Translations under genes and position numbers: made by a program
IMG/VR virus record: IMGVR_UViG_3300013131_000186
Coordinates: 1-28,847 of that record
DNA: 28,847 bases
Reading direction: 5' to 3' (one strand)
Source of the DNA: a virus
The notes under the pieces: generated by a model
Told to the model about the DNA's origin: nothing
Databases searched by the model: none
Seen by the model: only the letters and a program-made list of their open reading frames with translations
In this document: piece by piece, positions 4,261-27,254 of the stretch
Layout of the letters: every line of letters starts with the position of its first letter
Position numbering within the stretch: the stretch's first letter is position 1

Positions 4261-4290
4261 ATTTTTTAACTATAATCTTAAAATGTAGAT

Positions 4291-4869
4291 ATGAATTATA
4301 AAGAACTACTAGAGAAAGAAATTGAGGGATTAAAAAGAATACCAACTAATTCAGTTAGGGACATGGTGTCTCAGATTATAAATTACAGAAATGGAGGAAA
4401 TATAATAACTTCTGGAATGGGTAAAGCCGGACAGATAGCTAATATGTTTTCTACTACTTTATGTTCCACTGGAATACCCTCTTATTTTTTACATCCTGCT
4501 GAAGCACAACATGGAGATCTTGGAATGGTTAGGGAAAATGACATCATCATAATTTTTAGTAATTCTGGTAAGACCAGAGAGATATTAGAACTAATTGATT
4601 TGATCCATAATTTGGGTCATAATAATTATATCTATGCTATAGTAGGTAAGACAAATGAGACTATTCAACTTAAATGTGCTGATTATATAGAATTTGGGCC
4701 TACTGAAGAAATATGTCCTTTGGGGCTAACCCCTACAACCTCAACCACTTGTATGTCTGTGATATCAGATCTTATTGTGGTTGGTCTTATGAAACATTAT
4801 AATTTAACAAAACTAGAATATAGTAAATTGCATCATGCAGGATATCTCGGAGAAAAATCAAGATCGTAA
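4291..4869 (+). CDS. kdsD: D-arabinose-5-phosphate isomerase (KdsD/KpsF type), SIS domain only
   Basis: Catalyses ribulose-5-phosphate to arabinose-5-phosphate, the first step of Kdo synthesis. The 192-residue protein is one SIS domain: SGMGKAGQIANMF (about 42-54), HPAEAQHGDLGMV (about 68-80), FSNSGKTREILEL (about 89-101) and PLGLTPTTSTTCM (about 142-154) match the KdsD/KpsF/GutQ pattern, and the LHHAGYLGEK end corresponds to the SHPGGALGRK end of the bacterial SIS domain. The two C-terminal CBS domains of the usual ~320-residue bacterial enzyme are absent, so it ends where the SIS domain ends. It overlaps the KdsA gene by 35 bases, and the two act in consecutive steps, which supports both calls. 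Confidence 0.88.
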   Translation: MNYKELLEKEIEGLKRIPTNSVRDMVSQIINYRNGGNIITSGMGKAGQIANMFSTTLCSTGIPSYFLHPAEAQHGDLGMVRENDIIIIFSNSGKTREILELIDLIHNLGHNNYIYAIVGKTNETIQLKCADYIEFGPTEEICPLGLTPTTSTTCMSVISDLIVVGLMKHYNLTKLEYSKLHHAGYLGEKSRS

Positions 4870-5635
4870 AATATTAATAGCAGGACCATGTGTTGCTACA
4901 TCTTTACAAGAGTGCGTCTCTATTGCAGAGAGAGTGAAAGAAGCCGGAGAAAAATACGGGTTTCTTCCTATTTTTAAAGCAAGCTTTGATAAAGCAAACA
5001 GAACTTCTGATGAATCTTATAGAGGAGTCGGAATGAGAATGGCAATATCAATATTCTCTAAATTAAGAGAAAGAGTAGATATTCCAATTATAACTGATGT
5101 TCATGAAACTTCACAAGTTGAATATTTGAAGGGATTTGTCGATTATCTACAGATCCCTGCTTTTTTATGCAGACAAACGGATCTTATTTATGCTTGTGCA
5201 AAAAGCGGACTACCTACTATTGTAAAGAAAGGACAATTCCTTTCCCCTGAATCTTGTTCTTTTATAGAGAAGAAATTTTACAGATCCGGAGGTAAGGAAA
5301 TGATGATATGTGAAAGGGGAAATACATTCGGGTATAACGATTTGGTAGTTGATGTCACATCTTTGTCAAGATTAAAGAAATCATGTCCGGAGTCTAAAGT
5401 TATTATGGACTGTACCCACAGCTTACAAAAGCCAAATGGGATTTATGGAAAAACGGAAGGTAATTCAGATTATATTGAAGACATGGTTAAATTTGCTTCA
5501 GTTATGAATACTGACGGACTTTTTATAGAAGTTCATCCTAATCCGGAAGAATCTCCATCTGACCCTGAGAATATGTTAGAATTAAGTAAATTAGAAAAAA
5601 TACTAGAAACCTCCAGAAAAATATACGGAATATGA
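4835..5635 (+). CDS. kdsA: 3-deoxy-D-manno-octulosonate-8-phosphate synthase (metal-type)
   Basis: Condenses arabinose-5-phosphate with phosphoenolpyruvate to Kdo-8-phosphate. The 266-residue TIM-barrel protein has IAGPC (residues 15-19), FKASFDKANRTS (47-58), SYRGVGM, ITDVHE (86-91), IPAFLCRQTDL (107-117), VKKGQFLSP (130-138) and ERGNTFGYNDLVVDV (160-174), a clear KdsA rather than DAHP or sialate synthase. Cys19, His195, Glu232 and Asp243 sit at almost the spacing of the metal ligands known for the Aquifex enzyme, so this is probably the metal-dependent class; the E. coli type has Asn in place of the Cys. The start lies within kdsD and the stop overlaps the next start as ATGA. KdsC and KdsB are not in the window. 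Confidence 0.93.
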   Translation: MQDISEKNQDRKILIAGPCVATSLQECVSIAERVKEAGEKYGFLPIFKASFDKANRTSDESYRGVGMRMAISIFSKLRERVDIPIITDVHETSQVEYLKGFVDYLQIPAFLCRQTDLIYACAKSGLPTIVKKGQFLSPESCSFIEKKFYRSGGKEMMICERGNTFGYNDLVVDVTSLSRLKKSCPESKVIMDCTHSLQKPNGIYGKTEGNSDYIEDMVKFASVMNTDGLFIEVHPNPEESPSDPENMLELSKLEKILETSRKIYGI

Positions 5636-6345
5636 AAAATGTAGATGTCGTAATAATATCTTGGGCTAAGGACGAGGAATTAAGATCAATCACAAAGAAT
5701 GGTTTAGATACTCTTTTTGATTCTTCTAATGATATAGCATTTCATGCCTATATTGTTGAATCTAATAGGGATGTTAATTATGATGAATATAATCAAATTA
5801 AATGGATGCATTCAACAACAACTATTTATCCTGAAGACACAAGTTTCGGATACCACAAATATTTGAATATTGGTAGAAAGGCAGGACATTCAGAATATGT
5901 TGTTTTGTGTAATAATGATTTAACATATGAAAAAGGTTGGGCAGATAAAATAATAGAGGCTATGGAAAGCAAACCTTCTATTATGTCTGCTAGTCCATGG
6001 TGCCCGCAAACACAAGGAAGTAATCAGAATGTATCTGGTTTGGTGTTTAATGGGTATAGAGTTAGAGGAGAATTAGCTGGATGGTGTATATTTCAGAAAA
6101 GAAGCATTTATGAATTAATCGGAGATCTTGACGAGCAATTTACCCATTGGTATTGTGATAATGATTATGGTATGACTTTACAGACTAAAGGAATTACACA
6201 TTCTTTAGTAACTGATTCTGTTGTCAACCATCACGATAAGATTCTAGGAAAAACACATGAGATATTCGATAATGAATATCAAAGAAATACAACGGTTTTA
6301 CAGGCAGAAAAATTTGAAAGTAAATGGAATTTAAAACAAAAATAG
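5632..6345 (+). CDS. GT2-like (GT-A fold) glycosyltransferase
   Basis: A 237-residue protein with an N-terminal VDVVIISWAKDEEL strand (about residues 4-17), the metal/nucleotide-binding acidic motif VVLCNNDLTYEKGW (about 90-103, NND at 94-96), a GWCIFQKRSIYELIG acceptor-site stretch (about 150-164) and a second acidic motif HWYCDNDYG (about 172-180, DND at 176-178) corresponding to the ED/DD catalytic region of GT2 enzymes. The middle of the protein SFGYHKYLNIGRKAG is typical of the donor-side helix. It is soluble, without membrane segments, and overlaps KdsA (ATGA) and the following oxygenase (22 bases), so it very likely acts in the same glycan route. Sugar specificity cannot be read. Confidence 0.8.
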   Translation: MKNVDVVIISWAKDEELRSITKNGLDTLFDSSNDIAFHAYIVESNRDVNYDEYNQIKWMHSTTTIYPEDTSFGYHKYLNIGRKAGHSEYVVLCNNDLTYEKGWADKIIEAMESKPSIMSASPWCPQTQGSNQNVSGLVFNGYRVRGELAGWCIFQKRSIYELIGDLDEQFTHWYCDNDYGMTLQTKGITHSLVTDSVVNHHDKILGKTHEIFDNEYQRNTTVLQAEKFESKWNLKQK

Positions 6346-7118
6346 AAAGTCTTTCTGAAAAAGAACTAAGAAATAAATTCTTAGATTCTAGACCTTTCAA
6401 TCATTTAGTGATTGATAATTTTTTGGATCTGAATACCGCTGAAAAAATAGCAGACGAATTTCCTTCGTTTGATGAAGATTTTTGGTATTCTTATGATAAT
6501 CCATTGGAGATTAAAAAAGCTAGTAATAACTGGAATAATTTTTCAGATGCTACTTATTCATATTTTATGAAAGTGCTATCCCCAGAATTTACTTCCGTAC
6601 TGGAAAAAATAGTTGGGTGTAAACTCTACCCCGATATTGGATTACATGGAGGAGGTCTACACACACATAAAAATGGAGGTAGATTAAATCCTCATCTTGA
6701 TTATTCAATACACCCTAAATTGGGTCTCCAGAGAAAACTTAATCTGATACTTTATGTTAATCCATTATGGAAACCTGAATATGGCGGTAATTTAGGATTA
6801 TGGAATACTGACGAATTCGGTAAACCAGAAAGATTAATTGAGGACATAGATTGCTTATTTAATAGAGCTATTCTATTCGATACTACACAGGACTCTTGGC
6901 ACGGAATATCAAAAGAAATAAAATCACCGGAGGGTATTAATAGAAATAGTTTAGCAGTTTACTATTTAACAGATAGACACGATTCTGCAGATCCTAGAAT
7001 GAAGGTTAAATATGCGCCAAGAGAGGATCAGAAAAACGATCCTGAAATAGAACAGCTTATTTTAAAGAGACAATCTATGGAAGGGTTTAAATCAAGTTAC
7101 GTAACAAATAAAAAATAA
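6324..7118 (+). CDS. 2-oxoglutarate/Fe(II)-dependent oxygenase (prolyl-hydroxylase-like)
   Basis: A 264-residue protein with the double-stranded beta-helix iron site: His124 and Asp126 in LNPHLDYSIHP, then His193 in SWHGI, and Arg207 in NRNSLAVYYL as the probable 2-oxoglutarate-binding residue. The strand YGGNLGLWN (about 153-161) before the distal His also fits the prolyl-4-hydroxylase-like superfamily. Such enzymes hydroxylate proteins, sugars, lipids or nucleobases; the substrate is not visible here. It overlaps the glycosyltransferase gene by 22 bases and is followed after 5 bases by a methyltransferase, suggesting a modification step linked to the glycan island. A protein substrate such as a virion protein is an open alternative. 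Confidence 0.85.
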   Translation: MEFKTKIESLSEKELRNKFLDSRPFNHLVIDNFLDLNTAEKIADEFPSFDEDFWYSYDNPLEIKKASNNWNNFSDATYSYFMKVLSPEFTSVLEKIVGCKLYPDIGLHGGGLHTHKNGGRLNPHLDYSIHPKLGLQRKLNLILYVNPLWKPEYGGNLGLWNTDEFGKPERLIEDIDCLFNRAILFDTTQDSWHGISKEIKSPEGINRNSLAVYYLTDRHDSADPRMKVKYAPREDQKNDPEIEQLILKRQSMEGFKSSYVTNKK

Positions 7119-7123
7119 ATAAT

Positions 7124-7651
7124 ATGGCACACCAAGAGCAAGCAGATTTTTGCAATTACGTCAGAAATAAATTTCCTGAAAAATTTGATAATGTTAGTGT
7201 TTTAGATGTTGGATCTTTGGACATTAACGGAAGTAACAGATTCCTATTTAGTGGTGATTATTCATACATTGGTGTAGATTTAGGTCCAGGTAAAAACGTT
7301 GATGTTATATGTAGAGGACACGAATTTAAAAGCGATGAAGTTTTTGATGTTGTGGTTTCAACAGAATGTTTTGAGCATGATGAGTTTTACCCTTTAACTC
7401 TAAAGAATATGTATGACCATTTAGCTGTTGGAGGTGTTTTCCTTTTCACTTGTGCTACTACAGGAAGAGCAGAACATGGTACAACTAGAACATCACCTTC
7501 TGATGCACCTTTTGTTGGAGATTACTACAAGAATTTAACTGAGAGTGACATAAGAGAAGTTATGGATATTGAGAATATGTTCTCCGAATTCGAATTTATT
7601 TCTAGAGAGGTATTTCCACAAGACCTTTATTTTTACGGGATTAAAAAATAA
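7124..7651 (+). CDS. Class I SAM-dependent methyltransferase (type 11 like)
   Basis: A 175-residue compact methyltransferase: motif I VLDVGSLDINGS (about residues 26-37), the acidic end of strand 2 at YIGVDLGPG (about 48-56), FDVVVSTECFEH (about 70-81) as the motif after strand 4, and HLAVGGVFLFTCA (about 97-109) as strand 5. The TSPSDAP stretch and a final VFPQDLYFYGIKK are common in small-molecule or sugar methyltransferases of surface-glycan clusters. It is the last gene of the island; a 49-base gap with an inverted repeat follows, so the transcript unit may end here. Substrate unknown. Confidence 0.8.
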   Translation: MAHQEQADFCNYVRNKFPEKFDNVSVLDVGSLDINGSNRFLFSGDYSYIGVDLGPGKNVDVICRGHEFKSDEVFDVVVSTECFEHDEFYPLTLKNMYDHLAVGGVFLFTCATTGRAEHGTTRTSPSDAPFVGDYYKNLTESDIREVMDIENMFSEFEFISREVFPQDLYFYGIKK

Positions 7652-11656: not shown

Positions 11657-12277
11657 ATGCTAGCAATTGATATAATAGAATCTAAACCATTATTTGATAA
11701 TCCTTATACTGGAAGAACGTATTTGGATTTATTATCTCCATCATGGAACACTAAGAATATTAATTATGAATTAAAAGGAGTTGCTGTGGTTACTGAAGAG
11801 ACTCAAATGAGACCAGATCTTGTTTCCTTGATATTTATGGGGGATCCTGGTAAATTGGGATCCTTATTAAAACTTAATAATATATCGAACCCTATCAGTG
11901 TAAAGGCTGGGGAGGTTTTATTTGTTCCTGGTAATAACATGATATCTGGTCTATTCAAGGATGGTGAAAAATCAGCAGTGAGTGAGAAGGAAAAATCAAG
12001 ATCGTTTAGGAAAGAATTACAAGACAAAATATCTAAAGTTAGTGATGGTAGATTAGAATATTTGAATGCTAAAAATATATCTAATTCTGCTGCAGCAGCT
12101 GGACAAACACCATTACCTCCTAATATATTAGCAGATGGACAACAGCAAATAGCTGTTGAATCTGGTAAATTAATATTTGGTCCAGATATCGGACAATGTA
12201 GAACTAAGGGAACTAAAAATATATCAGTAACTGATGTGAAATCTAAGCTGGCACAAAGAAACATTTTTAATAGATAA
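11657..12277 (+). CDS. LysM-domain baseplate wedge protein (gp53-like)
   Basis: A 206-residue protein with a LysM-like core at about residues 51-92: MRPDLVSLIFMGDPGKLGS then LLKLNNISNPISVKAGEVL and FVPGNN, matching the pattern of 'discharge-and-step' residues in T4 gp53, whose LysM-type fold sits in the baseplate wedge. The first 50 residues are strand-rich with GRTYLDLLSPSW, and the end has PPNILADGQQQIAVESGKL and a GQCRTKG stretch. Length and location between a tube-cap-like protein and the hub gene fit a wedge or hub connector. It is cytoplasmic until assembly. Possible alternative: a generic LysM tail-hub protein of jumbo phages. Confidence 0.6.
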   Translation: MLAIDIIESKPLFDNPYTGRTYLDLLSPSWNTKNINYELKGVAVVTEETQMRPDLVSLIFMGDPGKLGSLLKLNNISNPISVKAGEVLFVPGNNMISGLFKDGEKSAVSEKEKSRSFRKELQDKISKVSDGRLEYLNAKNISNSAAAAGQTPLPPNILADGQQQIAVESGKLIFGPDIGQCRTKGTKNISVTDVKSKLAQRNIFNR

Positions 12278-12280
12278 AAA

Positions 12281-13882
12281 ATGGCAGAAATAAATTTAAA
12301 TAAAGCTATATTACAATATTTAGCTCCTACTATAGTTTTAGATGAGCTATCAATGGTTAATATGAATAGGGATGAGGGAGATCCTAAAATCAACGACGAA
12401 AAAGCAGGTAATATACAAAAGAAGTATTTTGGTTATTATGAACCACTAATAAAAATAAATAACAATATTATAAAGGGGTTAAATTATTTCTCTTTGGATC
12501 TTACTGATTTTAAGCCTAGTGTGGTTTTCAGATTTACTACAAACGATGAAAGATTTATATTTACTTCATATCCTAAGGATGGAGATGTAATTTCTGTTTA
12601 CATAAGAGCATTGGGTGAGCTTTTTAAACCAATAAGAATGGATTTTATTATAACCCAAGTTATCTCTCCTTTCTCTAAATCATCTAGTACATTTGGTGAC
12701 GATAAAGGAAAAGATAAACAAACAGGAAAGCATCAAACCTATACTGTATTTGGGGAGATTAAAATTCCTAAGATTTATAAACACATCTCAAAGCTGTTTA
12801 AAGGAAGTAGTTATGATACATTAAAAAAAGTTGCTGAAGAATTATCATTAGGATTTGCTTCAAACGTTACAAGGACTAATGATGAGATGAATTGGATGTG
12901 CGCAAATTTAGATTATGATTCATTTATAAGGGATGTTACTAGAGCTTCTTGGACAGGTGAAGAGGATTATTTCGATTGCTGGATTGATCAATATTATAAT
13001 CTTAATTTTGTTAATTTAAAAAAGCAATTTGATAACACTAATAATAAAATTGAAACCATGAGAATTCCTTATGGTGTTAACGAAACGCCAGATTTTCAAG
13101 GAGGCGTTGAATCAAAAGAAATTGAATTTCCATTAGTTATTACAAACTCTACTAGATTTGCTAGCTCTCCACTTTATATCAGATCCTTTGGAATTGAGAA
13201 TAATGCGGGTAAGATAAGCAATGATCTTGGATATTTTCAAAAATTGCAATTTTATGATGACAAATTAGTTTCGGATAAGCCAAAAAATAAGTTTGTCCAA
13301 TATGATATAGAAAGTGTCACTAATAAGGATCTAGGAAAAAGAAGCGTTATATACAAAGGAAGAATAGGTGAAAATATTTATAAAGAGGAGGTTAAAAAAA
13401 CTTATTTAGGTACTGTATATTTTGAAAATGTTCACGAAAATTACCACCAGGCTCAGATACAAAATATTTTGAATAAGAATGATAATTACAAGATAATTTT
13501 AAAAGTTAAAAATTCTAAATGGACACCTTTCTTATATAGAGGACAAAACTTTCCAGTTGTTATAGAACAAATATCAGGTGTTAGTGCTCCAGGTGATACA
13601 AGAGATGATATAAAGGTCCAAACGAGCAAGACTAATTCAAACGATGGAGATAAAAGAATTATAAATGCTTTCCTTTCTGGTGATTATGTTGTATTAGGAT
13701 TTAATATAGAATATACAGCAAAGGATGGGATGTATCAGAGTATGATTCTTGGTAAAAAAGAATGGAGCATGAACCCAGGAATTGCTTCTGAGCAACAGAC
13801 CTCTTGGGGTAAGAATGACAGCAGTGATTTTAATTCGCTCTCTGCTAATAACCAACCAAGTAATAACGGGCAAGAAGAATAG
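12281..13882 (+). CDS. Baseplate hub protein (gp27/gpD-like)
   Basis: A 533-residue protein with the hub signature SSYDTLKKVAEELSLGFASN (about residues 176-195), then TNDEMNWMCANLDYDSFI (about 199-216) and a WTGEEDYFDCWIDQYYNLNF stretch (about 224-243) that resembles the phage late-control D/VgrG/gp27 tail-hub fold. The N-terminal PSVVFRFTTNDERFIFTSYP region is a plausible first beta-barrel domain. The gene lies 3 bases after the LysM gene and before the spike gene two positions on, as expected for a hub that binds a gp5-type spike. A 73-base gap with a promoter-like motif follows. Specific family rank (gp27 versus gpD-type) is not resolved. Confidence 0.6.
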   Translation: MAEINLNKAILQYLAPTIVLDELSMVNMNRDEGDPKINDEKAGNIQKKYFGYYEPLIKINNNIIKGLNYFSLDLTDFKPSVVFRFTTNDERFIFTSYPKDGDVISVYIRALGELFKPIRMDFIITQVISPFSKSSSTFGDDKGKDKQTGKHQTYTVFGEIKIPKIYKHISKLFKGSSYDTLKKVAEELSLGFASNVTRTNDEMNWMCANLDYDSFIRDVTRASWTGEEDYFDCWIDQYYNLNFVNLKKQFDNTNNKIETMRIPYGVNETPDFQGGVESKEIEFPLVITNSTRFASSPLYIRSFGIENNAGKISNDLGYFQKLQFYDDKLVSDKPKNKFVQYDIESVTNKDLGKRSVIYKGRIGENIYKEEVKKTYLGTVYFENVHENYHQAQIQNILNKNDNYKIILKVKNSKWTPFLYRGQNFPVVIEQISGVSAPGDTRDDIKVQTSKTNSNDGDKRIINAFLSGDYVVLGFNIEYTAKDGMYQSMILGKKEWSMNPGIASEQQTSWGKNDSSDFNSLSANNQPSNNGQEE

Positions 13883-13955: not shown

Positions 13956-16469
13956 ATGGCAGATTTTTTATCTAATCTCGGGAGTGGTCTTAAAAATAAT
14001 CTTACTCCAGATCCTAAGAAGTTCTTAAGTAGAAAAATAGATGCTCAGAGAAATAATTTCATAAAAGGAATATCCTCTCATAGACATGCTAAGAAGGAAG
14101 ATCCGACTTACTTGTCTTTTAAATTTATTTTTGATTTTGCTATAGGATCAGAGATAGATCCTGAAACTTTTTTAGCCCCTTCACCTCTATTTAGAAATTC
14201 TGATGAATTTCAAAATGATGAGGAATTATCTAATTATATAAAAGACCTAAGTAATAAAGAAACGTCTAGAGGTGATAAATTAGATGATTACGAAATGGAT
14301 AAGATAAGAGGTAAAGGTGGATTCAGTAAGGATATAGATTTTTTCTACGGTGCTAAATTCAGAGTTCCTGGACTAATAGGCGCTGGAGCCTATCCAATGC
14401 ACTCTATCTCTTATATGGGTGCACAAGATTTTTTAGGTGTTAGATCAAAACAAAGAAAAGATATGATTAGGGGGTTTAGAAATGGACTAGACTTCATTAA
14501 TAAACATTGCCCTTATTATTTTCAGAGTGTTACTGGATTAGAAACTTTATTAAAAACACCAATCCATAATTATCATAAAGCTGCAGCATCTTTAAAAAGA
14601 GCAGGAACATTAACTGTTGATTGCTTAGAAAGTATAGACATGAGAATATCTGCTTTAGCTGAATTATACAGAAAAGCAATTTACGATTATACTAATCATA
14701 GGGTAATGCTTCCTGAGAATTTAAGAAAATTTAGAATGTGGATGGTTGTGACTGAGATCAGAAATATACAGTTAAGCCAAGGTGGGGTGAACGATCTATT
14801 AAATCCTTTTAGTATACCATCGGTAGCACAGGGTGCTAATTTTTTAGAGAATTTTAGCAGCCAGACTGGATTATTTAAAGAAATGTTTGAATCCGATGAT
14901 CCTGAAGATAGACCAGGATCTGCAAAATTTGGAAGTTATGATATGATGCCATATGCTTGGGTTTATCAATTTGATAATTGTGAATTTGATTTTGACGAAA
15001 CCTATCCTTTTGGTTCTAGCATAGACAATAAAGGTAATCCTACTGCAGTTTCTACTAAATTCTCTATCCATGTAGGAAGAGTTAAAGAACACAAGATACA
15101 GTTTAATCAATTAGCTGATCTAATAGCTAAGAATGATGGAGTTGAGAGCATGGTAATAAATGATACATGGCATCCAGGAGCTAGCGGATATAATGAAATG
15201 GATTACAGTGGGAATGCTGGTATAAGTACATTAACATTTAGTGATAAAGCTAATCCTGGACAATATGCGGCAGATCTAGCTTCTAAATTTATAACTAATA
15301 GTCTTGGGGGACTTAAAGATCTAGGTGTGTCTAAATTGCAAGGTAAATTATTGGGTAATATTTACGGTCTTGGTGGTATAGATCCTAGAAACGCTCTAAG
15401 CAGCGTACAGAGTATAGTTAACCAAGCTAAAGCGGGTATTCCTAATCCATTTGCTAAAAACGATCCTCAGTCTAAAGGACTAGGAGGTCCGGGTGAAAGA
15501 CAATATCCAATTGTTAAAGAAGATGTTTATCCGGACGGTGCGAATGGAGGAGCACAAGGAAGTTTGGGTAATGTTAATCCTGGAAGCGCGCCAACTAATA
15601 ATACATTAAAGGAGGATGCATACCTTAATGTCCCAGGGACAGATTTAGGTCTTCCTGATAGAGCTTACGAGAGTATTAAAGAGGATCAATATTCAGATGT
15701 ACCTGGGAAAGATCTTGGAGTTCCTAAGAGAGTTTATCCTTCTATTAGCGAGGACACTTATAAGGATGAATCAATTACTTATCCAGGAGTTAAGGACAGT
15801 CTTTATACTATTCCCCCAGTAACTCCTGAAACTCTAAGCGATGTTTACAAGGATGATCCTATAGTATATGAAGGAGTTAAGGGTGATGAATATAAAGAAG
15901 TTCCTGGTAAGGATCTTGGATTACCTCAAAGAGATTATCCTTCTGTAAAAGAGGATGTTTATAAGGATGAGACTATTTTATATCCTGACGTAAATGATAA
16001 ACAGTACCCACCTAACCAGAATCCACCTATTGTTAATACAATTGGAGACCAATATGCAAATACCCCAGGGTCTGATTTAGGACTTCCTCAAAGAAATTAT
16101 CCTGGTATATCTGCTGATGAGTATCCAGATGTTCCTGGAAAGGATCTTGGTGTACCTAGAAGAATATATCAACCTACTAGTGGGGATGCTTATAAAAATG
16201 TACCAGGAGAAGACCTAGGATTACCTACTAGAGTTTATCCTAATAATGGATCTGGGGCAGATCAATATAAAGGGGTACCTGGAGAAGACTTAGGTTTACC
16301 TAAGAGAGCTTATCCTTTACCAGATGGTGATGTTTATAAAGAATCTCCTGGAACGGATCTAGGTCTTCCTAAAAGAGCTTATCCTAATATAACTCAAGGA
16401 GGTGATGAATATCCAAATGTTCCTGGTTCGGATCTTGGCGTACCTGGTAGAAGATATCCTGGTATTTAA
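13956..16469 (+). CDS. Tail-associated protein with C-terminal VPGxDLGLPxRxY repeats
   Basis: An 837-residue protein. Residues ~50-400 are a folded domain with features of a tail-tube-type module (a VDCLESIDMRISALAEL helix, ENLRKFRMWMVVTEIRNI, then VYQFDNCEFDFDETYPFGSS and STKFSIHVGRVKEHKI). Residues ~420-515 form a linker rich in Gly and Pro. Residues ~516-834 are low-complexity: nine copies of a 16-residue unit Y-x-x-V/T/S-PG-x-DLG-L/V-P-x-R-x-Y, mixed with three shorter units of the form YKDE/D-x-I-x-Y. The protein is basic-aromatic and Pro-rich in this tail and has no membrane segment. It sits between the hub and spike genes, so a role at the tail tip is likely; the repeat tail may be a docking or fiber-like module. 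Confidence 0.6.
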   Translation: MADFLSNLGSGLKNNLTPDPKKFLSRKIDAQRNNFIKGISSHRHAKKEDPTYLSFKFIFDFAIGSEIDPETFLAPSPLFRNSDEFQNDEELSNYIKDLSNKETSRGDKLDDYEMDKIRGKGGFSKDIDFFYGAKFRVPGLIGAGAYPMHSISYMGAQDFLGVRSKQRKDMIRGFRNGLDFINKHCPYYFQSVTGLETLLKTPIHNYHKAAASLKRAGTLTVDCLESIDMRISALAELYRKAIYDYTNHRVMLPENLRKFRMWMVVTEIRNIQLSQGGVNDLLNPFSIPSVAQGANFLENFSSQTGLFKEMFESDDPEDRPGSAKFGSYDMMPYAWVYQFDNCEFDFDETYPFGSSIDNKGNPTAVSTKFSIHVGRVKEHKIQFNQLADLIAKNDGVESMVINDTWHPGASGYNEMDYSGNAGISTLTFSDKANPGQYAADLASKFITNSLGGLKDLGVSKLQGKLLGNIYGLGGIDPRNALSSVQSIVNQAKAGIPNPFAKNDPQSKGLGGPGERQYPIVKEDVYPDGANGGAQGSLGNVNPGSAPTNNTLKEDAYLNVPGTDLGLPDRAYESIKEDQYSDVPGKDLGVPKRVYPSISEDTYKDESITYPGVKDSLYTIPPVTPETLSDVYKDDPIVYEGVKGDEYKEVPGKDLGLPQRDYPSVKEDVYKDETILYPDVNDKQYPPNQNPPIVNTIGDQYANTPGSDLGLPQRNYPGISADEYPDVPGKDLGVPRRIYQPTSGDAYKNVPGEDLGLPTRVYPNNGSGADQYKGVPGEDLGLPKRAYPLPDGDVYKESPGTDLGLPKRAYPNITQGGDEYPNVPGSDLGVPGRRYPGI
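15621..16457 (+). repeat. Nine tandem/interspersed protein-coding repeats
   Basis: Nine 16-codon units with pattern Y-x-x-x-PG-x-DLG-L/V-P-x-R-x-Y, encoded at residues 556-571, 579-594, 646-661, 700-715, 723-738, 746-761, 771-786, 794-809 and 819-834. Spacing is 23 residues for most neighbours, with longer gaps where short units (YKDESITY, YKDDPIVY, YKDETILY) intervene. The DNA differs between units while the protein pattern is held, pointing to selection on the protein. Confidence 0.9.
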
Positions 16470-16508: not shown

Positions 16509-17315
16509 ATGAGTCAAGTAAATAGGAATAAATTAGAAAAGTCCAATTCTGAATCACAACACTTTTTAGGTGTAGTTGTAGATAATAAGGATCCTGAATT
16601 TAGAGGGAGAGCTAAGATTAAAGTTTTTGGTATGTTCGAGGATATGCCAGACGAGGACCTTCCTTGGGCTCATCAAAGATTTGAAATGAGCTATGGTTTA
16701 AATGGAGGATCTGGTAGAATTTCCATACCTAAATTAGGATCAGTTGTACATGTTCAATTCAATAACGGAAATTATTATTCGCCAGAATATAAAGCAGTAC
16801 AGGAACTATCTCCTGATTTAGTAACAGAAATAAAAAGAAGCTACGACGGAGCACATTCATTAATATATGATGGTATCGAGAGACTAAAAATGTTCTATAC
16901 TGTGGAGAAAGGACTTGTTATAGATCTTAAAGATTCTAAGATTATAATTAGAAATGATAATTCAATACTTATAACACATGCTGATGATACAGCATCCATG
17001 GAATTAAAAGGAGGGAAGATAACAAAATACGCAGACCAAGAAATAGAGAATGTTGCAGTTAGTAGGATAAAACACACATCTGAAGAAGTTTGGTGTGATG
17101 GTAAAGTTACTAATTTGGGTCACTCTCCTTTATTTTCTGCTGTTTGTGCAGAGCCACTTTGGGATTTTTTAAAAAAACTTTCTATTGCAGTTGATTCAAA
17201 ATGGCCAGCTACACCTGGGGTTAATTCTTCTTTAGCTTCTAGCTTTGAACAATTAGCAACCAGTTCTACTGTTAGAGTTACGAGAGAGAATTTCCCTGAT
17301 GATTTAGAAGCTTAA
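16509..17315 (+). CDS. Tail spike/hub protein with gp5-type OB-fold domain, no lysozyme
   Basis: A 268-residue protein beginning with a gp5-like OB fold at about residues 18-100: FLGVVVDNKDPEFRGRAKIK, VFGMF, DLPWAHQRF and SGRISIPKLGSVVHVQF with NGNYYSPEY. It resembles the N-terminal domain of T4 gp5 and of VgrG-type spikes. A repeating strand region (IIIRNDNSILITHADD, SMELKGGKITKYA) follows and probably forms a triple-stranded beta-helix, with a TNLGHSPL stretch after it. There is no lysozyme insertion as in T4 gp5. It lies between the repeat protein and the giant protein, with 1 base to the next gene; it would form the tip that pierces the outer membrane. Confidence 0.75.
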   Translation: MSQVNRNKLEKSNSESQHFLGVVVDNKDPEFRGRAKIKVFGMFEDMPDEDLPWAHQRFEMSYGLNGGSGRISIPKLGSVVHVQFNNGNYYSPEYKAVQELSPDLVTEIKRSYDGAHSLIYDGIERLKMFYTVEKGLVIDLKDSKIIIRNDNSILITHADDTASMELKGGKITKYADQEIENVAVSRIKHTSEEVWCDGKVTNLGHSPLFSAVCAEPLWDFLKKLSIAVDSKWPATPGVNSSLASSFEQLATSSTVRVTRENFPDDLEA

Positions 17316-17316
17316 T

Positions 17317-20300
17317 ATGAGTAATATTGAAAATATAATAGATAAGATCCTGTCTGAGGATCTAGAAAATATATCAGCTGATAAATTAGTTGGTATTATT
17401 ACTGGTGGGCAAACAATAGAAGATCTTGAAAAAAACTACCAGAATCTTCAATCTGACGGGGGATTTAATTTTGAGTTAGAGAAAGCTAAATCTTCCGTAA
17501 AAGCAATGGTTGATAGTTTAAAACCAGTACCCCTTCCAATTTCAGAGGAGAAGATAGATCAGCTTTCTTGTGATTTTAGCGGAGATGATTTATACTCTAA
17601 TATTCTAATAGAATGTGCTAATCAGACAGACCCATCTCTTTTACAAGGTGTAGATTTAGATTCTTTAAGAGATGATGAAGGTAAAATAAAATCTGATCTT
17701 GTAAATTCGATACTAGAGAAAAAAAATCCTGGATTTAAATCTAGTATTAATGAATCAATATTTGATGCTATGGATCCTTTATTTTTAAGTAAACCAAGTA
17801 ATATTGGAACTAGAAAAGAAAGGACTTGTAAAGTACTAGGATTTGATTTAAAATTTGAATGTATCATTTCTAAACCTGATAATACTCCTGTTTATTATAA
17901 AATCAAAAGTGATTTTGAAAAGGACGGAAAGAAAGAAGCTAAGAAAAGGATTAAGAAAATTCTAGATGATATGTACTCCAATTCTAAGGGGTGCGATTTT
18001 AAAGATCTAGCGGGTGGAGTATTCGATGACGATAGGGATAATGATTTAAATTCTGAAACTGATGCTAATTTACTTGACCGAAATTTAGGAAGGGACAGTA
18101 AAGCATATGATGATGGTGAGAGAATGAAAGATCAGATCACTAATTATAAAGCATATGAGGAATACGATTCTCAATTCTTTCCCGGAGGACAAGATCCTTT
18201 ATTAAATGCTGATTGTGATCCTGTTTTAACTGAGGATCCAATCACGGGTGATGTCATATTAACGGAGGATGCTATCAAACAAATAATAGACCAGGATCAG
18301 TTCTGTGATCCAACTCCGGCAAAGGATCGTGCAGCTAGTCAACCACGAGAAGCAGATCCTTTAGATGTAGATCCAGATGTTGATAAATTTGATCCTGCAC
18401 AGATAGAATCTTGTATAGATGAAGCTATGAAAGCATCTTCGTCGATAGAATTTGATGTTAAGAATTTAGCAAGATGGCAGGTTGTTAGTAATTATTTAGA
18501 GGAAATATATTACCATTACGACTTAATATTTGAATATCAATCAAAGCTAAAACAACTTTGGGAAGAAAATTCAAAAGAAAAAAAATCAGGACCTGATAAA
18601 GACTTAGGTACAGCTCTTCTTGCTTTAAGTTTTGATGACAAAGTTAAAGAAACAGATAGACAGATATTATTCGAATCTCAGGATTATGATTATTACATTT
18701 CTGCATTTTTAGAAGAGGTTAAGATATTCAATAAAAATGTTTTTTTAATTTCCACTGAAAATTTAGATTTAGAGGAGGATGAATTAAGAAAAGTTTTTAA
18801 TTCTTTAATAGATCAAGGAAAATCACCAATAGTTTATGATGGAATATCTGGTAGCTATGACGTGAATCTTGGTATTTCTAAATTCCAAGAGTATTATGAT
18901 ACACTTAGTGTTATATTCAAAAAGAGAGATCTTATAAATTCCCTTAAGACTTTAAAAAAATCTGATGAGGATCAGAGGGATGCTTACATAAATACATTAT
19001 CAACAAGTCTAGGGAAAACTATTAGTCTTAGTAATATACCTTCCTTATTTGAATTAAAATCGTCTATTGTCGAGCAAGCTGCACAATTAGTTCTTAACGA
19101 AGCTGTATTTGCAGGTGTTCCTGGAACTAAATTAGGTGCTCCCGGACATATTTACAAAGAGGAATTAAAAGAATTCTCAGCTAGATTTAGTGATGTATAC
19201 TTTGACGGATTTGAAAGTATGTTAAAGTTTGAATTAACATTTATGACTGATCTAGGATCTCCTATGCCTAAAAAATTAACGGAGAAGCCTGGTAAATTTA
19301 GTCTTTTCGGAAACTCCGGTCAGATGGAGAAGGTTTTAGAAATAGATACACCACTAGTAAGACTAGGTAATGAATATGATAAGAAAGAAGGTATACTAAA
19401 AGAATTTCCAGTAGACTATTTAAATACCTGCAAAGTTCTTAAAATAAAAAATCTTAAAACAGGTCAAGAAGATGTCACTGATTTTTACAACTTTGTGTCT
19501 GATATAATAGATACAGACAAATCAAAAAATGCAATCATTAATAAAATGGTTGACGATCATGGAGTACTCTATGGAAGATTAATTGAAATTTCTGCTTCAC
19601 CTTGGCTTTTCTTTAGTGCTAGTGAAAGAGGTGATAACAATGCTAGAGATCCTTCAAAATCTAGGCCTTCTAGTTTTAATGGTGACGGAGAACCTAATGA
19701 AGCGTTCAAGGATTTTTTTAGTAATTATAAGAAAAAATGGGATGCTAGATATAATGAAAATAAAGAGAGATACATTAACCCTAAAATAAGGGATGTTAAA
19801 AAATCTGCAAGATCAGCAGCTAAGGCTTTATTCGAAGTACTTCCTGATGAACCTAAAATAGGTGCTAAGATATATCAAGCATATTATGACCTGAAAAAAA
19901 GAGTAGATCAGATACAGGATATAATACTTCTGGTTAATCAGAAGAGTGAAGAGTTTAATAAGAAACTGTCTCCTGATAACTTGAAGAAGAAATTTTCTAA
20001 AATTAAATGTGCACAACAAGAATCTGTTGGCGATAATCTTTCTCCTGGTGATTCATTGGATATGAATTTAGGAACTGATGATGATGACTCAGAGAAATGT
20101 CCACCTCCTTGCTGTGGGCCTGCAGGATCTGATTTTAAAGGAAAAGCACCTTATCTAGTTTCTTCTCCTCCTAGCGGAGATTGCCCTACAATATACCAAA
20201 AATGTTGGTGGAAACAATTTGCTAAACATCTCACAATAGTTGGTCTTTTACCTTATCCTAATGGATTACCTCCTATTGAAGATCCGAAGAAGTTCTTAAC

Positions 20301-22536
20301 TGGTGGTCCTTCAGTAAGGTTAGGACTAAAATATTGGCCAGTTGGGTATATTCCGCCAGCTTTTATTCCTATTCCTATTCCGAATCCAGTTGACGGCCAG
20401 CCTTATATTAGGATTCCTTTACCTATGATATTTACAATAATTCCTCCTATAGTTATTCCACTTCCGTTTAATTTAGGGGTTCTTGTTATTTTCATTCCTT
20501 TCATAGGAGGATTTATGCCTACCCCATTAGTTTATATAAAAGAATTTATCCTTGGGCATTCACTGTTTATTACTGGATTAAGAGGTCCTAGATTTATACC
20601 TAGAAAATTAGATCCGAAAATAAAAGATCCATTAGAAAAATTCAAACAGGCTTTGAGTTTTGGTATTCCTGATAAGCTTATAGATTTACCAAATTTTGGA
20701 AAAGATAATATCGATAGTCCTTTTAGAATAATGAAGGACCTTGCAGTTCATTTAGGTAAGATAGTTGATTCTGTTCCTCCTCCGAGTAATATAGAAGGAC
20801 TTAGACAAGCACAACAAAGTGAGACTGTATTAAGAGATAAGATAGAATCTCTTAGAAAAGAGTATGATAAAAAATCAGCTCTTTATGATATTCCTAAACC
20901 TGATCTGTCTCAATTTAAAAATGAATTGGAGGAAGTAACTAAACAGAGAAGAGAAGTTTTAAAATCTGTTATTTCTCAATATATTGATAATACATTTCCT
21001 ACTCCTAAGAGTATTCATTTTCCAAAGAATAAGGATAATTTAAAAATTGATATTCCTGGGGTTCTTAAATCTATAAGAATATTAAGAGATATGAAAGCTA
21101 ATAATGTTCCTTATAAATGCGAACCTGTAATAAACTTTAAGGAGGATATGAAGGAAGTACTTCATGCTTTAAAAATAATAACACCTCCTGAATATTTAGA
21201 AGAGAACCTAAACGTTTCTAATCCCAATCAGATATTTCTTAGAAGGAATAAAGACCCTAGATTAATGAATAAGGAGGAATTTGAGGATCTTGTTAAACAA
21301 CTGAAAGGATCTGTTAATGTCATAGCCCACATTCTTATGAGGGGTAATAAGCTTTCTGTTATAAGGAAGATAAGAAAAGGAGTTTTTTCTGAGATAGATT
21401 TCTGTGAATATCAAGGTAATTTTTTCTTTCCACTTCCAGAAATAACTGTTAATCCACCAAAAGCCCTTAAATTCAAAAGAAAAAGAATTAGGGAAATAAG
21501 GGATATGTACAGAAGAATCATGGCAGGTATGGCTTCTGTTCAATACACAGCAGAGGAATTACTTAGTTATGTTAGGTATAATGGAGAAGAAGCACAATTA
21601 GTTATAAGAGTAAAGGATCTTAAGAAAATAGTTTCTAAAAAAATGGGGCTTTCTAGAAGAAAACCTAACGAAGCAGCAAGACCTATTGACAAGGAAGAAC
21701 CACTAATATCTAATTTTCCGCATCCAGAAGGTAGTCTTTGTTGTTTAGAATCACTTAATAGCGGATTTGGTAATGCTGTTACTGCACTGGAACTTCCTAC
21801 ATTTTTCCCTCTAAAGCAAGGACAATTAAGTAATATACAAGGCCTTGGCGGTAAACTAGAGATAACAATTAAGGGAGAGGATATAAAGAAATATATAAAA
21901 GAATCTGCTAACGATCTAATAGATAAAGGAAAACTTGAGGAGATAGTTCCTGAATTAAATGACCCTCTGTCTCCTAAATTTATAAATCTTGATCCATTAG
22001 ATTTGCAAAAAATTGCAAGATCCGTTATAACTTCAACATTCAATCCAAAGGGTATAATACCTCCTATAATAGCTCCTTTAAGTTTAGCAGGAATCCAGAA
22101 AGCTAGGCCAACTGATATGGTTGAACAGATATCAATTGGAATGGGTGTACCTAATTTTGCTAGAACACCTATTTCTCTTTTCTGGCAATATTTTAAAGGT
22201 GTACCTAAAACACCACTTGGGGAGAAAATAATAAATGAAGCTATTAGATTAGCAGCTAAAATACTTGATAAGTTACCTTGGCCTATAGTTGTTCTAATAG
22301 GCAGACAAGTTGTTAATCTGATAAATCCTTTAATTATACAGGATGATCATCCTGTATGGAGAAGAATGAGTCTAAAGAATGTTTATTATGTTATTTATTT
22401 AGACGAGTTTTTAAGAAGTGCTGCTGATGTTTCTGGTCTTTTCAAATATTTCCTTGGATCTACAGGATTGGATTATCCAATACCTGAGATTAAGCCAGAG
22501 TTTAAAAAAGCTTATGAGGATATAAAAAAATATTAG
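17317..22536 (+). CDS. Giant virion-type structural protein (1739 residues)
   Basis: A 1739-residue protein of no family I can name. The N-terminal third is acidic and Asp-rich with scattered Cys. Residues 598-613 carry one unit (F-AGVPGTKLGAPGH-IY) of the repeat motif found nine times in the protein two genes upstream. A middle helical stretch (about 820-890) resembles coiled-coil. Residues 898-963 hold six Cys (898, 928, 932, 933, 956, 963) in a Pro/Gly setting. Residues ~1009-1072 form an unusual Ile/Pro/Phe-rich hydrophobic stretch; the later part is long and helical. It is not the usual tape-measure layout, since the long regular helix run is missing. It starts 1 base after the spike gene, so a role in the baseplate or central tail tip is likely. 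Confidence 0.6.
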   Translation: MSNIENIIDKILSEDLENISADKLVGIITGGQTIEDLEKNYQNLQSDGGFNFELEKAKSSVKAMVDSLKPVPLPISEEKIDQLSCDFSGDDLYSNILIECANQTDPSLLQGVDLDSLRDDEGKIKSDLVNSILEKKNPGFKSSINESIFDAMDPLFLSKPSNIGTRKERTCKVLGFDLKFECIISKPDNTPVYYKIKSDFEKDGKKEAKKRIKKILDDMYSNSKGCDFKDLAGGVFDDDRDNDLNSETDANLLDRNLGRDSKAYDDGERMKDQITNYKAYEEYDSQFFPGGQDPLLNADCDPVLTEDPITGDVILTEDAIKQIIDQDQFCDPTPAKDRAASQPREADPLDVDPDVDKFDPAQIESCIDEAMKASSSIEFDVKNLARWQVVSNYLEEIYYHYDLIFEYQSKLKQLWEENSKEKKSGPDKDLGTALLALSFDDKVKETDRQILFESQDYDYYISAFLEEVKIFNKNVFLISTENLDLEEDELRKVFNSLIDQGKSPIVYDGISGSYDVNLGISKFQEYYDTLSVIFKKRDLINSLKTLKKSDEDQRDAYINTLSTSLGKTISLSNIPSLFELKSSIVEQAAQLVLNEAVFAGVPGTKLGAPGHIYKEELKEFSARFSDVYFDGFESMLKFELTFMTDLGSPMPKKLTEKPGKFSLFGNSGQMEKVLEIDTPLVRLGNEYDKKEGILKEFPVDYLNTCKVLKIKNLKTGQEDVTDFYNFVSDIIDTDKSKNAIINKMVDDHGVLYGRLIEISASPWLFFSASERGDNNARDPSKSRPSSFNGDGEPNEAFKDFFSNYKKKWDARYNENKERYINPKIRDVKKSARSAAKALFEVLPDEPKIGAKIYQAYYDLKKRVDQIQDIILLVNQKSEEFNKKLSPDNLKKKFSKIKCAQQESVGDNLSPGDSLDMNLGTDDDDSEKCPPPCCGPAGSDFKGKAPYLVSSPPSGDCPTIYQKCWWKQFAKHLTIVGLLPYPNGLPPIEDPKKFLTGGPSVRLGLKYWPVGYIPPAFIPIPIPNPVDGQPYIRIPLPMIFTIIPPIVIPLPFNLGVLVIFIPFIGGFMPTPLVYIKEFILGHSLFITGLRGPRFIPRKLDPKIKDPLEKFKQALSFGIPDKLIDLPNFGKDNIDSPFRIMKDLAVHLGKIVDSVPPPSNIEGLRQAQQSETVLRDKIESLRKEYDKKSALYDIPKPDLSQFKNELEEVTKQRREVLKSVISQYIDNTFPTPKSIHFPKNKDNLKIDIPGVLKSIRILRDMKANNVPYKCEPVINFKEDMKEVLHALKIITPPEYLEENLNVSNPNQIFLRRNKDPRLMNKEEFEDLVKQLKGSVNVIAHILMRGNKLSVIRKIRKGVFSEIDFCEYQGNFFFPLPEITVNPPKALKFKRKRIREIRDMYRRIMAGMASVQYTAEELLSYVRYNGEEAQLVIRVKDLKKIVSKKMGLSRRKPNEAARPIDKEEPLISNFPHPEGSLCCLESLNSGFGNAVTALELPTFFPLKQGQLSNIQGLGGKLEITIKGEDIKKYIKESANDLIDKGKLEEIVPELNDPLSPKFINLDPLDLQKIARSVITSTFNPKGIIPPIIAPLSLAGIQKARPTDMVEQISIGMGVPNFARTPISLFWQYFKGVPKTPLGEKIINEAIRLAAKILDKLPWPIVVLIGRQVVNLINPLIIQDDHPVWRRMSLKNVYYVIYLDEFLRSAADVSGLFKYFLGSTGLDYPIPEIKPEFKKAYEDIKKY
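19108..19155 (+). repeat. Single copy of the VPGxDLGLPxRxY unit inside the giant protein
   Basis: Codons for residues 598-613 read F-AGVPGTKLGAPGH-IY, aligned without gaps to the consensus Y-xx-VPG-x-DLG-LP-xR-x-Y of the repeats at 15621-16457. Eight or so positions match or are conservative, with D to K, L to A and R to H changes. Both proteins are in the same tail block. Confidence 0.6.
20341..20535 (+). other. Pro/Ile-rich hydrophobic segment in the giant protein
   Basis: Codons for about residues 1009-1073 encode a run dominated by Ile, Pro, Phe, Leu and Val (for example IPPAFIPIPIPNP, then PMIFTIIPPIVIPLPF and VIFIPFIGGF) with almost no charge. Such a run is rare in a soluble virion protein. 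It could be membrane-interacting, a beta-sheet core, or a buried structural segment. Confidence 0.7.
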
Positions 22537-22601: not shown

Positions 22602-23714
22602 ATGAATAAAAATTATAGTTTTTTTGAATATGATGAATCCTCAAGGAATAATCTATCAAATCTTTATAATGAAACTTTTCCAGAGGATAATTCACTTTTT
22701 GAGAATGGGAAAGATTTAAAATCAAATACAACAACTCAGGTTAAAATAACTAAAATAGATACTACTAATGGAGTTACTCTAGCAGAAACCCCATTTGGTC
22801 AGGCTGTTGTTATTGACATTAAAAAAGAGGAGAAAGGATTTAGAAAATTAGGATATCCCTATTTTGAACCCGAAGTGGGTCAAACATTAGATGTTGTAAT
22901 TACTAAGGATGCAGCAGGAACATTCAATGGATCATTATCCGCTGGATACGAGAAAGCTCTTAGAAGAGAACTTCATAATGCTATTAAAAACGAAGACTGT
23001 GCATATAATGTAAAAGTTACTTCTGTTTGTAATGGAGGATTTATGGTAGATCTTTCAGGAATTCAATGTTTCTTACCTGGATCATTAGCAGCTGCAAATC
23101 GAATAATGAATTTTGCTGAATATGTTGGTAAGGAAATACACGTAATGGTTGAGGTGTATGATCAGAAAAGAGACATATTTGTAGTTTCGTTCAAGAAATA
23201 CCTTAAGAAAATTATTGACTCTAAAGTTAAAGAACTTTCTTTTGTTGAGAAATATCAAGGAGTTGTTACAGGAGCTTCTGGTACTGGTGTATTTGTTGAA
23301 TGGGATGAAATCTACACTGGTATAATTCCTTTTGATGATTCTAATAGATCTTCATTAGAGGAATTAACAGCAGGTGATAATGTTTTCTTTTATGTTACTG
23401 ACATAAAGAACCCACAGAGAGTTACTCTTTCTATACAGGAACCTAATGAGAAGCTTAAGAATATTCAATCACTTAAGGACAACTCTTTAGATTCTACTGG
23501 TAGTAGCGAGGGTAAAACTTACGGGGGAGAAGTTGCTAAACTAAAAAACTTTGGTGTTTTTGTTAGATTGGAAAACGGACTAAACGGACTAATTGAAAAA
23601 GAGAAGTTAGCAGGGAAATTAGAATCATATGAAGTGGGTCAAAAAGTTACTTGTATGGTTTCTAATGTCGATTCTTCTTCTTTGAAAGTTCAATTGATTG
23701 AGGTTTCTAAATAA
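22602..23714 (+). CDS. Ribosomal protein S1-like protein with four S1 domains
   Basis: A 370-residue protein with four OB-fold S1 domains at about residues 44-115, 134-199, 216-279 and 307-367. The third and fourth are clear: KYQGVVTGASGTGVFVEWDE with YTGIIPFDD, and YGGEVAKLKNFGVFVRLENG with LNGLIEKEKL, both ending in the usual strand. The second has YNVKVTSVCNGGFMVDLSGI and CFLPGSLAA. S1 domains bind single-stranded RNA; bacterial S1 brings mRNA to the 30S subunit, mainly for leaders without a strong Shine-Dalgarno site. Four domains is fewer than the six of full-length E. coli S1. It is preceded by a 65-base gap and followed by the strong terminator, so it may be expressed apart from the tail genes. 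Confidence 0.85.
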   Translation: MNKNYSFFEYDESSRNNLSNLYNETFPEDNSLFENGKDLKSNTTTQVKITKIDTTNGVTLAETPFGQAVVIDIKKEEKGFRKLGYPYFEPEVGQTLDVVITKDAAGTFNGSLSAGYEKALRRELHNAIKNEDCAYNVKVTSVCNGGFMVDLSGIQCFLPGSLAAANRIMNFAEYVGKEIHVMVEVYDQKRDIFVVSFKKYLKKIIDSKVKELSFVEKYQGVVTGASGTGVFVEWDEIYTGIIPFDDSNRSSLEELTAGDNVFFYVTDIKNPQRVTLSIQEPNEKLKNIQSLKDNSLDSTGSSEGKTYGGEVAKLKNFGVFVRLENGLNGLIEKEKLAGKLESYEVGQKVTCMVSNVDSSSLKVQLIEVSK

Positions 23715-26045: not shown

Positions 26046-27254
26046 ATGTGTATATTAGAGAAAATTGAATCATGGAGATCCTATCAGGGAAAAGCTTTTG
26101 GTGCTATTATAGGTAGTATCAAAAAGAAATCAGAAATTATCCAGGAGCTAAGGGAGCTAACAGCCTTTTTGGATATAGTTTATTCAGAAGAAATATCTAT
26201 TCAGCAGAGATTTTATCATGTTTGGTTTAATTCTTATGAAATTGAGTTATGTCCGTATTGTGGTAAACCAAAATTATTTTCAAAAAAAGCTAAATTTTCT
26301 ATAGATCGTTACGGGGAAAAGCCTACAAATCCTGTAAATTATTATGCAACTTGTATGTCTGAAGCTTGTGTTAAAAAATACAATAGAGATAAAACGAATG
26401 AATCTATGTTGAGGAATCATGGTACTACTAATCCAATGGAAGTTCCTGGATCTTTAGAAAAAATTAAAGATAATAACAGAAAAAAATACGGAGCTGACTT
26501 TTATACAGAAACCGAAGAATTTAAAGAAAAAATAAATATAACCTTTAATAAAAAATACGGAGGACATCCAACTAAACTAAAAGAGACACAAGACAAGAAA
26601 AGAAAAACCAATAAAGAAAAATATGGATTTGAACATGTTCTAGATAATCCAGAAATAAAAGAAAAAGCGAGGATTACCAATAATTTAAAATATGGAGGAA
26701 ATTCTTCTATGTGTTCAGAAGATGTTAAAAATAAATCAAAAGAAACTAATAGAAGGAAACATGGAACAGATTGGTATATTCAGAGTGAAGATTTTAAAAA
26801 GAAATCCAAAGAAACTATGATATTAAAATACGGAGTGGAACATGTTATGCACTATACCCCTTCATTTGAAAAATCTTTGGATACGTCATATAAGAAAAAA
26901 TTGTTTATATTTCCATCAGGTAGAATAGAAAAAATCCAAGGATACGAGGGATTTGGATTAGTTGAGCTTTTAGATAGAGGATATAGAGAGGAGGATATCA
27001 TAGTTTCCAATAAAGAGATTGAAAAATATACCGGAAATATTTGGTATTATGATATTTACGAAAACAATAAGAGAAAAAAATATTATCCGGACATTTATAT
27101 AATATCAGAAAATAAGATAATAGAGATAAAATCTAAATATACCTATGAAGTTAACTTGTCGAGAAATATTCTTAAAAAACAAGCATGCCTCAATCTAGGA
27201 TTAAATTTTGAGTTTTGGATCTATAATTCTAAAGGTGAAAAGACTATAAAATAG
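26046..27254 (+). CDS. Homing-endonuclease-type protein: zinc site, KYG repeats, PD-(D/E)xK nuclease end
   Basis: A 402-residue protein in three parts. (a) A probable zinc site: Cys69, Cys72 (LCPYCGKP), Cys103 and Cys108 (TCMSEAC). (b) Residues ~120-275 carry a 22-23-residue repeat, each with a K-Y/H-G triplet (at 147, 170, 192, 215, 238, 261), as in phage DNA-binding repeats of free-standing endonucleases. (c) A C-terminal VSR/PD-(D/E)xK-like core: YYPDIYI (Asp349) then NKIIEIKSKY (Glu360, Lys362). This family is found in large phages as mobile, selfish genes. It interrupts the virion genes with gaps of 47 and 33 bases, each containing a TATATA word. The similarity is to a homing endonuclease by architecture, not by a tested function. 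Confidence 0.75.
   Translation: MCILEKIESWRSYQGKAFGAIIGSIKKKSEIIQELRELTAFLDIVYSEEISIQQRFYHVWFNSYEIELCPYCGKPKLFSKKAKFSIDRYGEKPTNPVNYYATCMSEACVKKYNRDKTNESMLRNHGTTNPMEVPGSLEKIKDNNRKKYGADFYTETEEFKEKINITFNKKYGGHPTKLKETQDKKRKTNKEKYGFEHVLDNPEIKEKARITNNLKYGGNSSMCSEDVKNKSKETNRRKHGTDWYIQSEDFKKKSKETMILKYGVEHVMHYTPSFEKSLDTSYKKKLFIFPSGRIEKIQGYEGFGLVELLDRGYREEDIIVSNKEIEKYTGNIWYYDIYENNKRKKYYPDIYIISENKIIEIKSKYTYEVNLSRNILKKQACLNLGLNFEFWIYNSKGEKTIK
26403..26870 (+). repeat. Tandem 22-23-residue KYG repeats in the endonuclease gene
   Basis: About six units between residues 120 and 275, each with N/E/K-rich helix and a K-Y/H-G triplet spaced 22-23 residues apart (147, 170, 192, 215, 238, 261). DNA identity between units is modest, so this is an old protein-level repeat. 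Confidence 0.8.

Follow-up and report, generated by a model that had tools for sequence, protein, structure and literature searches.

In T4, gp48 and gp54 are each present in six copies at the junction of baseplate and tail tube (PMC3004832), and in simple myophages the C-terminal domain of the tube initiator reaches down to BH1a, a protein that acts as a filler of the gap between hub and wedges (PMC11915804). The tail-tube rings of SPP1 lie 38.5 Å apart, and in 80alpha gp53 a C-terminal arm folds on the next ring (PMC8718954). Amino-acid tandem repeats that are disordered and under selection have also been described, in Borg elements (PMC9879509). Herein we describe a phage protein of 837 aa that combines a predicted tail-tube fold with a long C-terminal arm of tandem repeats.

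The protein is encoded in a 28.8-kb fragment, i.e., the whole stretch of 28,847 nucleotides that was analysed (hereafter the window). Its gene (13956..16469, +) is an open ORF with homologs in more than 100 IMG/VR loci, 130 of them usable and distinct (five IMG/VR scans). An earlier note, made from the letters alone, had reported nine copies of PGxDLGxPxRxY at 15621-16457, and all nine were confirmed at the C-terminus of this ORF. Its 16-residue unit did not hold, as the true period is 23 aa and a preceding D-x-Y is equally invariant. Counted with the D-x-Y, the units start at nt 15615, 15684, 15885, 16047, 16116, 16185, 16260, 16329, and 16404 (residue spacings of 23, 67, 54, 23, 23, 25, 23, and 25). 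Units 1-2 (DxYxxxPGxDLGxPxRxY, 23 aa each) occupy 15615..15752 (+) and are separated by degenerate units (15753..15884, +) from unit 3 (15885..15953, +), which a further degenerate unit (15954..16046, +) separates from units 4-9 (16047..16466, +), the last of which reaches the C-terminus (final residues DEYPNVPGSDLGVPGRRYPGI). The degenerate units, DTYKDESITYPGVKDSLY, DVYKDDPIVYEGVKGDEY, and DVYKDETILYPDVNDKQY, fill the 67- and 54-aa gaps in the same D-x-Y / YP frame. The array sets on at about residue 508 with GLGGPGERQYPIVKEDVY (15477..15530, +), a degenerate first unit in which G510, G511, P512, R515, Y517, D523, and Y525 are invariant in 27 relatives. When the 334-aa tail was shuffled 5000 times, the mean number of units was 0.0002, and no shuffle held more than one. 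With a net charge of −20 over its 334 aa the arm is acidic; it is rich in P, G, and Y and contains no Cys or Trp.

A profile built from 209 units of 27 distinct relatives gave the full unit as D-x-[YF]-x-x-x-[P]-G-x-[DE]-L-G-x-[P]-x-R-x-Y-[P]-x4, which covers 23 residues. The pattern used to collect these units did not demand the leading D, and D was found six residues ahead of PG in 209/209 of them, likewise Y/F in all; D, Y, PG, D/E, LG, R, and Y are kept in nearly every unit. Across the nine copies in the window, codon use varies at the Gly positions, at Leu and at one of the two Pro positions, the other Pro being CCT and Arg being AGA in 9/9 copies. The pairwise medians between units were 0.42 for dN and 0.87 for dS, which bears out the earlier suggestion that the DNA varies while selection holds the protein pattern, and identifies that selection as purifying. 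Within the relatives, units two apart share 69% identity, neighbours 61%, and units three apart 58%; since units two apart are the most alike in 50 of the 69 array loci, a 46-residue two-unit superunit is common. This 46-aa superperiod is present in most relatives, and the window array has no clear sign of it.

The repeat is not a named family such as RTX, LRR, ankyrin, or collagen, as the same note had supposed: nothing scored above cut-off in Pfam (lowest E 0.19), NCBIfam (17 bits, where the cut-off is 70), PHROGs (E 1.6e-4 at best, across 21 aa, to a family whose function is unknown), or the PDB by sequence. A PDB match of the array to a dioxygenase (E 0.0035) was taken as compositional. 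Searched alone against annotated phages, the array gave chance matches only (E 0.1 or worse), and a scan of genome contigs found no host-genome copy of it. The whole 837-aa protein had nothing significant in Pfam, NCBIfam, PHROGs, or the PDB by sequence either. In all fetched loci together, 204/204 ORFs that match the unit profile also show the core motifs of this protein family. Repeats of such a kind in a tube or baseplate protein are undescribed in the openly licensed literature, which is weak evidence of absence.

AlphaFold2, given the first 610 residues and a 93-sequence alignment drawn from the 130 usable IMG/VR homologs, modelled the core elements of residues 49-385 (14100..15110, +) at pLDDT 84-96 as a tail-tube fold. 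A full-length model made with the 27 close relatives alone reached pLDDT 35 and was inadequate. The best matches to solved structures were chains of baseplate/tube complexes, 9f4a_BQ (Z 11.2) and 5iv5_BG of T4 (Z 11.0), and further ones were 8bfk_A (Z 10.0) and the T4 tube protein gp19 (5w5f_A, Z 9.5). After the two leading chains came tube proteins of phiKp24, phiKZ, T4, and P1, and nearly all of the top PDB matches belong to phage or contractile-system tubes. In BFVD the model matched members of its own family, including the pT24 homolog (E 1e-16), as well as tube proteins, one of them labelled ‘baseplate tail tube initiator’ (E 5.6e-3). The model and its Z values both agree with the tail-tube fold expected of a gp48/gp54-like initiator. 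Foldseek alone found no PDB match below E 0.001 (best E 0.02, the top rows all tube or neck proteins), and the assignment to gp48/gp54 therefore rests on Z values of about 11, gene position, and exclusion. Behind the tube fold, a long helix is predicted with low confidence from AF2 secondary structure (residues 434-467), running into an LLGNIYG motif (residues 465-471; together 15255..15371, +) in which G467, N468, Y470, and G471 are invariant in the 27 close relatives.

Gene position agrees with the fold. Directly downstream lies a gene for a gp5-like baseplate hub/lysozyme-type OB protein (16509..17315, +; phrog_430 ‘baseplate hub subunit and tail lysozyme’, E 3.5e-17), whose match to Phage_base_V (E 2.6e-4) falls just under the Pfam cut-off. 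The same arrangement is seen in PTm1 and pT24, where the homolog also precedes a gp5-like gene, which there carries the annotation baseplate hub/lysozyme or baseplate assembly. The gp5-like protein of many relatives (L024, L021, L005, L026, and others) ends in collagen-like G-x-y repeats (GTSGTSGTSGITG, TGATGATG), and that of the window is without them. The major tube appears to be encoded elsewhere: in G001, a relative contig with an array of the window clade, a tandem pair of gp19-like genes (phrog_45 ‘tail tube’, E 6e-11) adjoins a sheath gene and is far from the array gene, so that in this relative, the window being a fragment, the sheath-adjacent tube genes are other genes. At L288 1438-2597, a relative has tandem gp19-like tail tube genes, two paralogs, beside a sheath gene. 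It follows from G001 that the tail is contractile and that the array protein is a second kind of tube-fold protein. We consider it most likely to be a baseplate-proximal tube ring, i.e., a gp48/gp54-like tube initiator, and neither the major tube nor a fibre; it would presumably form a hexameric ring that nucleates the tube.

Upstream of the array gene is a conserved partner gene for a 533-aa protein (12281..13882, +; phrog_35886, unknown function, E 3.5e-20), whose gene order is kept in distant relatives and which is hub-like by position. The 206-aa protein before it (11657..12277, +) is conserved with the locus, had no significant family match, and, judged by eye, is possibly gp53/LysM-like. 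A C-terminal [ND]-I-[FY] ending, supposed at first to be a docking motif shared by the 206-aa and 533-aa proteins, is conserved in the window clade; the idea was dropped because it is absent in distant clades and such endings are not enriched in PAU (8 vs 4.6 expected), nor strongly in two large contigs (3 vs 2.4 and 5 vs 1.5). Downstream of the gp5-like gene, a 1739-aa protein (17317-22536; conserved, at 1445-1743 aa, among relatives) without a significant family match carries a very hydrophobic, proline-rich stretch (FTIIPPIVIPLPFNLGVLVIFIPFIGGFMPTPLVY), and its lone PGTKLGAPGHIY was attributed to chance, as it is not conserved in relatives. Further along, the 370-aa product of 22602-23714, which lies amid structural genes, contains several S1 RNA-binding domains (Pfam E 1.6e-20), and that of 26046-27254 (402 aa) has K-YG motifs in repeated form and matches Pfam DUF7487 (E 2.8e-56). 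At the other end of the window, a sugar cassette (3490-7651) includes two glycosyltransferases, one of them of family 11, together with a SIS-domain isomerase, a DAHP_synth_1 protein (Pfam E 1e-55) whose size is KdsA-like, a 2OG-Fe(II) oxygenase, and a methyltransferase, and looks like phage-encoded synthesis of KDO or a surface sugar.

The core of the array protein is homologous to proteins of Bacteroidota jumbo phages (PTm1 ORF-235, pT24 BPT24_163, MaF61 ORF80, and Prevotella Lak) and to PAU gp255 (tblastn E 1e-6 to 1e-10). Those among them with an annotation (368-435 aa) are without an array; all are either labelled hypothetical or unannotated, and the PAU protein ends in NENIYGQS and that of PTm1 in DLGNVYN. 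Kinship to these cultured phages makes freshwater Bacteroidota likely hosts of the array-bearing ones. The distant homologs are mostly 370-470 aa, also without arrays, and end in a conserved tip: N[VI][YFN] lies no more than eight residues from the C-terminus in 32 of 40, against 1.3 expected. In a quick tree from core columns only, some of whose branches beyond the DLG clade are long, the bearers of the DLG array form one clade (35/35, SH-aLRT 95, one change), and on this sequence tree the array arose once, with a single origin. The sister pair of the clade has a single proto-unit in each member, TDVFPNVPGSDL / LTDVFPNVPGSDL in L214 (HMM E 1.5e-5) and EDVYPNVPEPP with KEDVYPNVPEPP...DLGNVF in L231. 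Other arrays occupy the same C-terminal place: L235 has 17-aa LGNTY units, L263 16-aa GPPTGDVYPN units, L228 and L230 units of 19-20 aa, L247 14-aa SITKLDL units, and L245, L246, and L253 a 16-aa NADLTGA unit in about thirty copies. Among these, the L228/L230/L235 and L245/L246/L253 groups are separate from the DLG clade in the tree. Some of the arrays visibly multiply the N/D-V-Y tip and others do not. Given unrelated arrays in at least two other lineages, this C-terminus is a place where array growth has set in repeatedly, a hot spot.

Copy number varies between near-identical phages by whole units, as expected from the recombination that had been proposed for it. L094 and L096, whose DNA is 99.2-99.8% identical over 9 kb and whose cores are identical, differ by exactly 138 bp, that is, two units or 46 aa, and the arms of L121 and L124 (core 95%) differ by exactly 23 aa, or one unit, which shows directly that units are gained or lost in register. 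In 60 close homologs the s.d. of length is 99 for the arm, which ranges from 191 to 734 aa, and 20 for the core; in a farther clade the arm reaches 1165 aa in L154 (25 canonical units by pattern, 38 domains by profile) and at least 1328 aa in L155 (at least 44 canonical units, at least 51 domains), which runs off the contig end. Arms thus span 191 to more than 1300 aa around a core that stays near 500 aa, and the DLG array from about 4 to more than 44 units; the relatives are mostly metagenome contigs in which long arrays may be mis-assembled, and the two-unit difference of L094 and L096 is clean in both.

We favour, at a probability of roughly 45%, the reading that the protein is a ring subunit at the hub-tube junction of a large contractile-tailed phage and that its arm is a multivalent array of docking motifs. 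The ring would sit where the baseplate hub meets the tail tube, in the manner of gp48/gp54, and six arms would leave it, each long, intrinsically disordered, and set with tandem docking motifs. Each unit (D-x-Y ... PG-x-DLG-x-P-x-R-x-Y) would bind weakly to a recurring tail surface, for which the candidates are successive rings of tube or sheath and the wedge or hub proteins that surround the ring, and many such contacts could jointly strap hub, wedges, and tube or speed assembly. The array would have grown from one ancestral unit, with whole units gained and lost through in-register recombination. What leads us to a docking strap is the combination of ten conserved positions per unit, a docking-like ancestral tip, a carrier at the hub, and the precedent of the myophage initiator. 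In the full-length single-chain AF2 model the arm has a pLDDT of about 25 and no secondary structure; the units, modelled as disordered, could fold upon binding, and the hexamer, disorder in the virion, the docking itself, and its partner are what we infer.

The docking array has to be weighed against a spacer or filler, in which the length and flexibility of the arm matter (as an entropic brush, by lumen filling, or as an assembly tether), its motif is incidental, and lineages use any expanded repeat. At least two other lineages carry unrelated arrays at the same position with periods of 14, 16, 17, and 19-20 aa, and the arm varies from 191 to more than 1300 aa beside a core near 500 aa; as the NADLTGA, SITKLDL, and LGNTY types do not all share the Y motif, length or disorder alone may be what is selected. 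Against this, ten positions of the unit are near-invariant over hundreds of copies and deep divergence within the DLG clade, and synonymous exceeds non-synonymous change between units, a constraint that a mere spacer would not require. A spacer is a possible reading that we hold tentatively. A strap or ruler, with one unit docking per tube or sheath ring so that arms climb the tube and unit number tracks tail length, is unlikely: 14-23 extended residues can span the rise of one ring, the longest array has more than 44 units, and 80alpha gp53 offers a precedent for an arm that folds on the following ring, yet the near-identical L094 and L096 are two units apart and, more weakly, G002 and G009 have arms of 305 and 374 aa beside largest proteins, the putative tape measures, of 2254 and 2257 aa.

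The earlier note had read the array as a host-range or docking tail, and of this the tail protein stands. In its host-range form, variable units would serve at the cell surface to display or exchange parts that bind receptors, for which the variable copy number and the tail location speak, as do the exterior C-terminal domains of the SPP1 and lambda tube proteins, that of SPP1 being proposed to touch the cell wall. The carrier is, however, a tube-fold protein encoded beside the gp5-like hub gene and not a fibre, and its units stay conserved from phage to phage instead of diversifying; sequence and structure searches found no fibre or adhesin fold or homology, the arm itself having no confident model to compare. 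A role in host range is accordingly quite improbable, and docking inside the virion is plausible: the arms look like rows of docking hooks and not like part of a host-recognition fibre. Neutral or slippage-driven expansion without function, to which the low-complexity composition, the rapid copy-number change, and the repeated origin of arrays would be congenial, can be dismissed almost entirely, as the array is kept in 35/35 sampled clade members and is constrained at the protein level, with synonymous divergence.

If the docking array is extended beyond the DLG clade, the family might, as a doubtful generalization, share a group-wide and so far undescribed baseplate device, in which the N-V/I-Y/F/N tip, a conserved docking peptide at the C-terminus of the initiator ring, was made independently in several lineages into polyvalent arms that strap hub, wedges, and tube with a strength set by unit number; such arms would consist of 14- to 23-aa units, more than 44 per chain at most, with hundreds of sites per virion. 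Through these results a family that has so far been annotated as hypothetical in cultured and uncultured jumbo phages (PAU, Tenacibaculum, Lak) gains a structural identity and a role that can be tested, and a probable virion ring protein is seen whose arm, predicted to be disordered, differs in length by whole units from one phage to an almost identical one. Were the arm a multivalent strap, unit number would be a natural setting for how stable the tail is or how it is triggered, readable in related phages without engineering.

Compared with described systems, the array protein shares with the initiators of T4 (gp54/gp48), Pam3, XM1, E217, and Mu (gp43) a tail-tube fold, a gene beside the hub/spike gene, and separateness from the major tube protein; several of these initiators, too, extend C-terminally past the tube domain. 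In the openly licensed literature no variable tandem-repeat arm is described for these initiators, whereas the arm of the array protein is 200 to more than 1300 aa long and predicted disordered. Lambda gpV, T5 pb6, SPP1 gp17.1*, and 80alpha gp53 with its C-arm likewise carry extra C-terminal material on a tube-fold protein, but there the major tube protein bears either folded Ig/FN3 domains or a short arm, and here the extra material is a repeat array on what would be the initiator ring instead. The closest published phenomenon to the DLG array is the tandem repeats of Borgs, which are also fast, independently arising, in-frame, and disorder-making, and which homologous proteins can carry (PMC9879509). 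In Borgs, which are extrachromosomal elements of archaea, the repeats are perfect and spread over many genes, whereas the phage arrays are divergent and confined to one virion gene per phage. Taken by modelled fold, position, and exclusion, the array protein is thus most simply of the tube-initiator kind.
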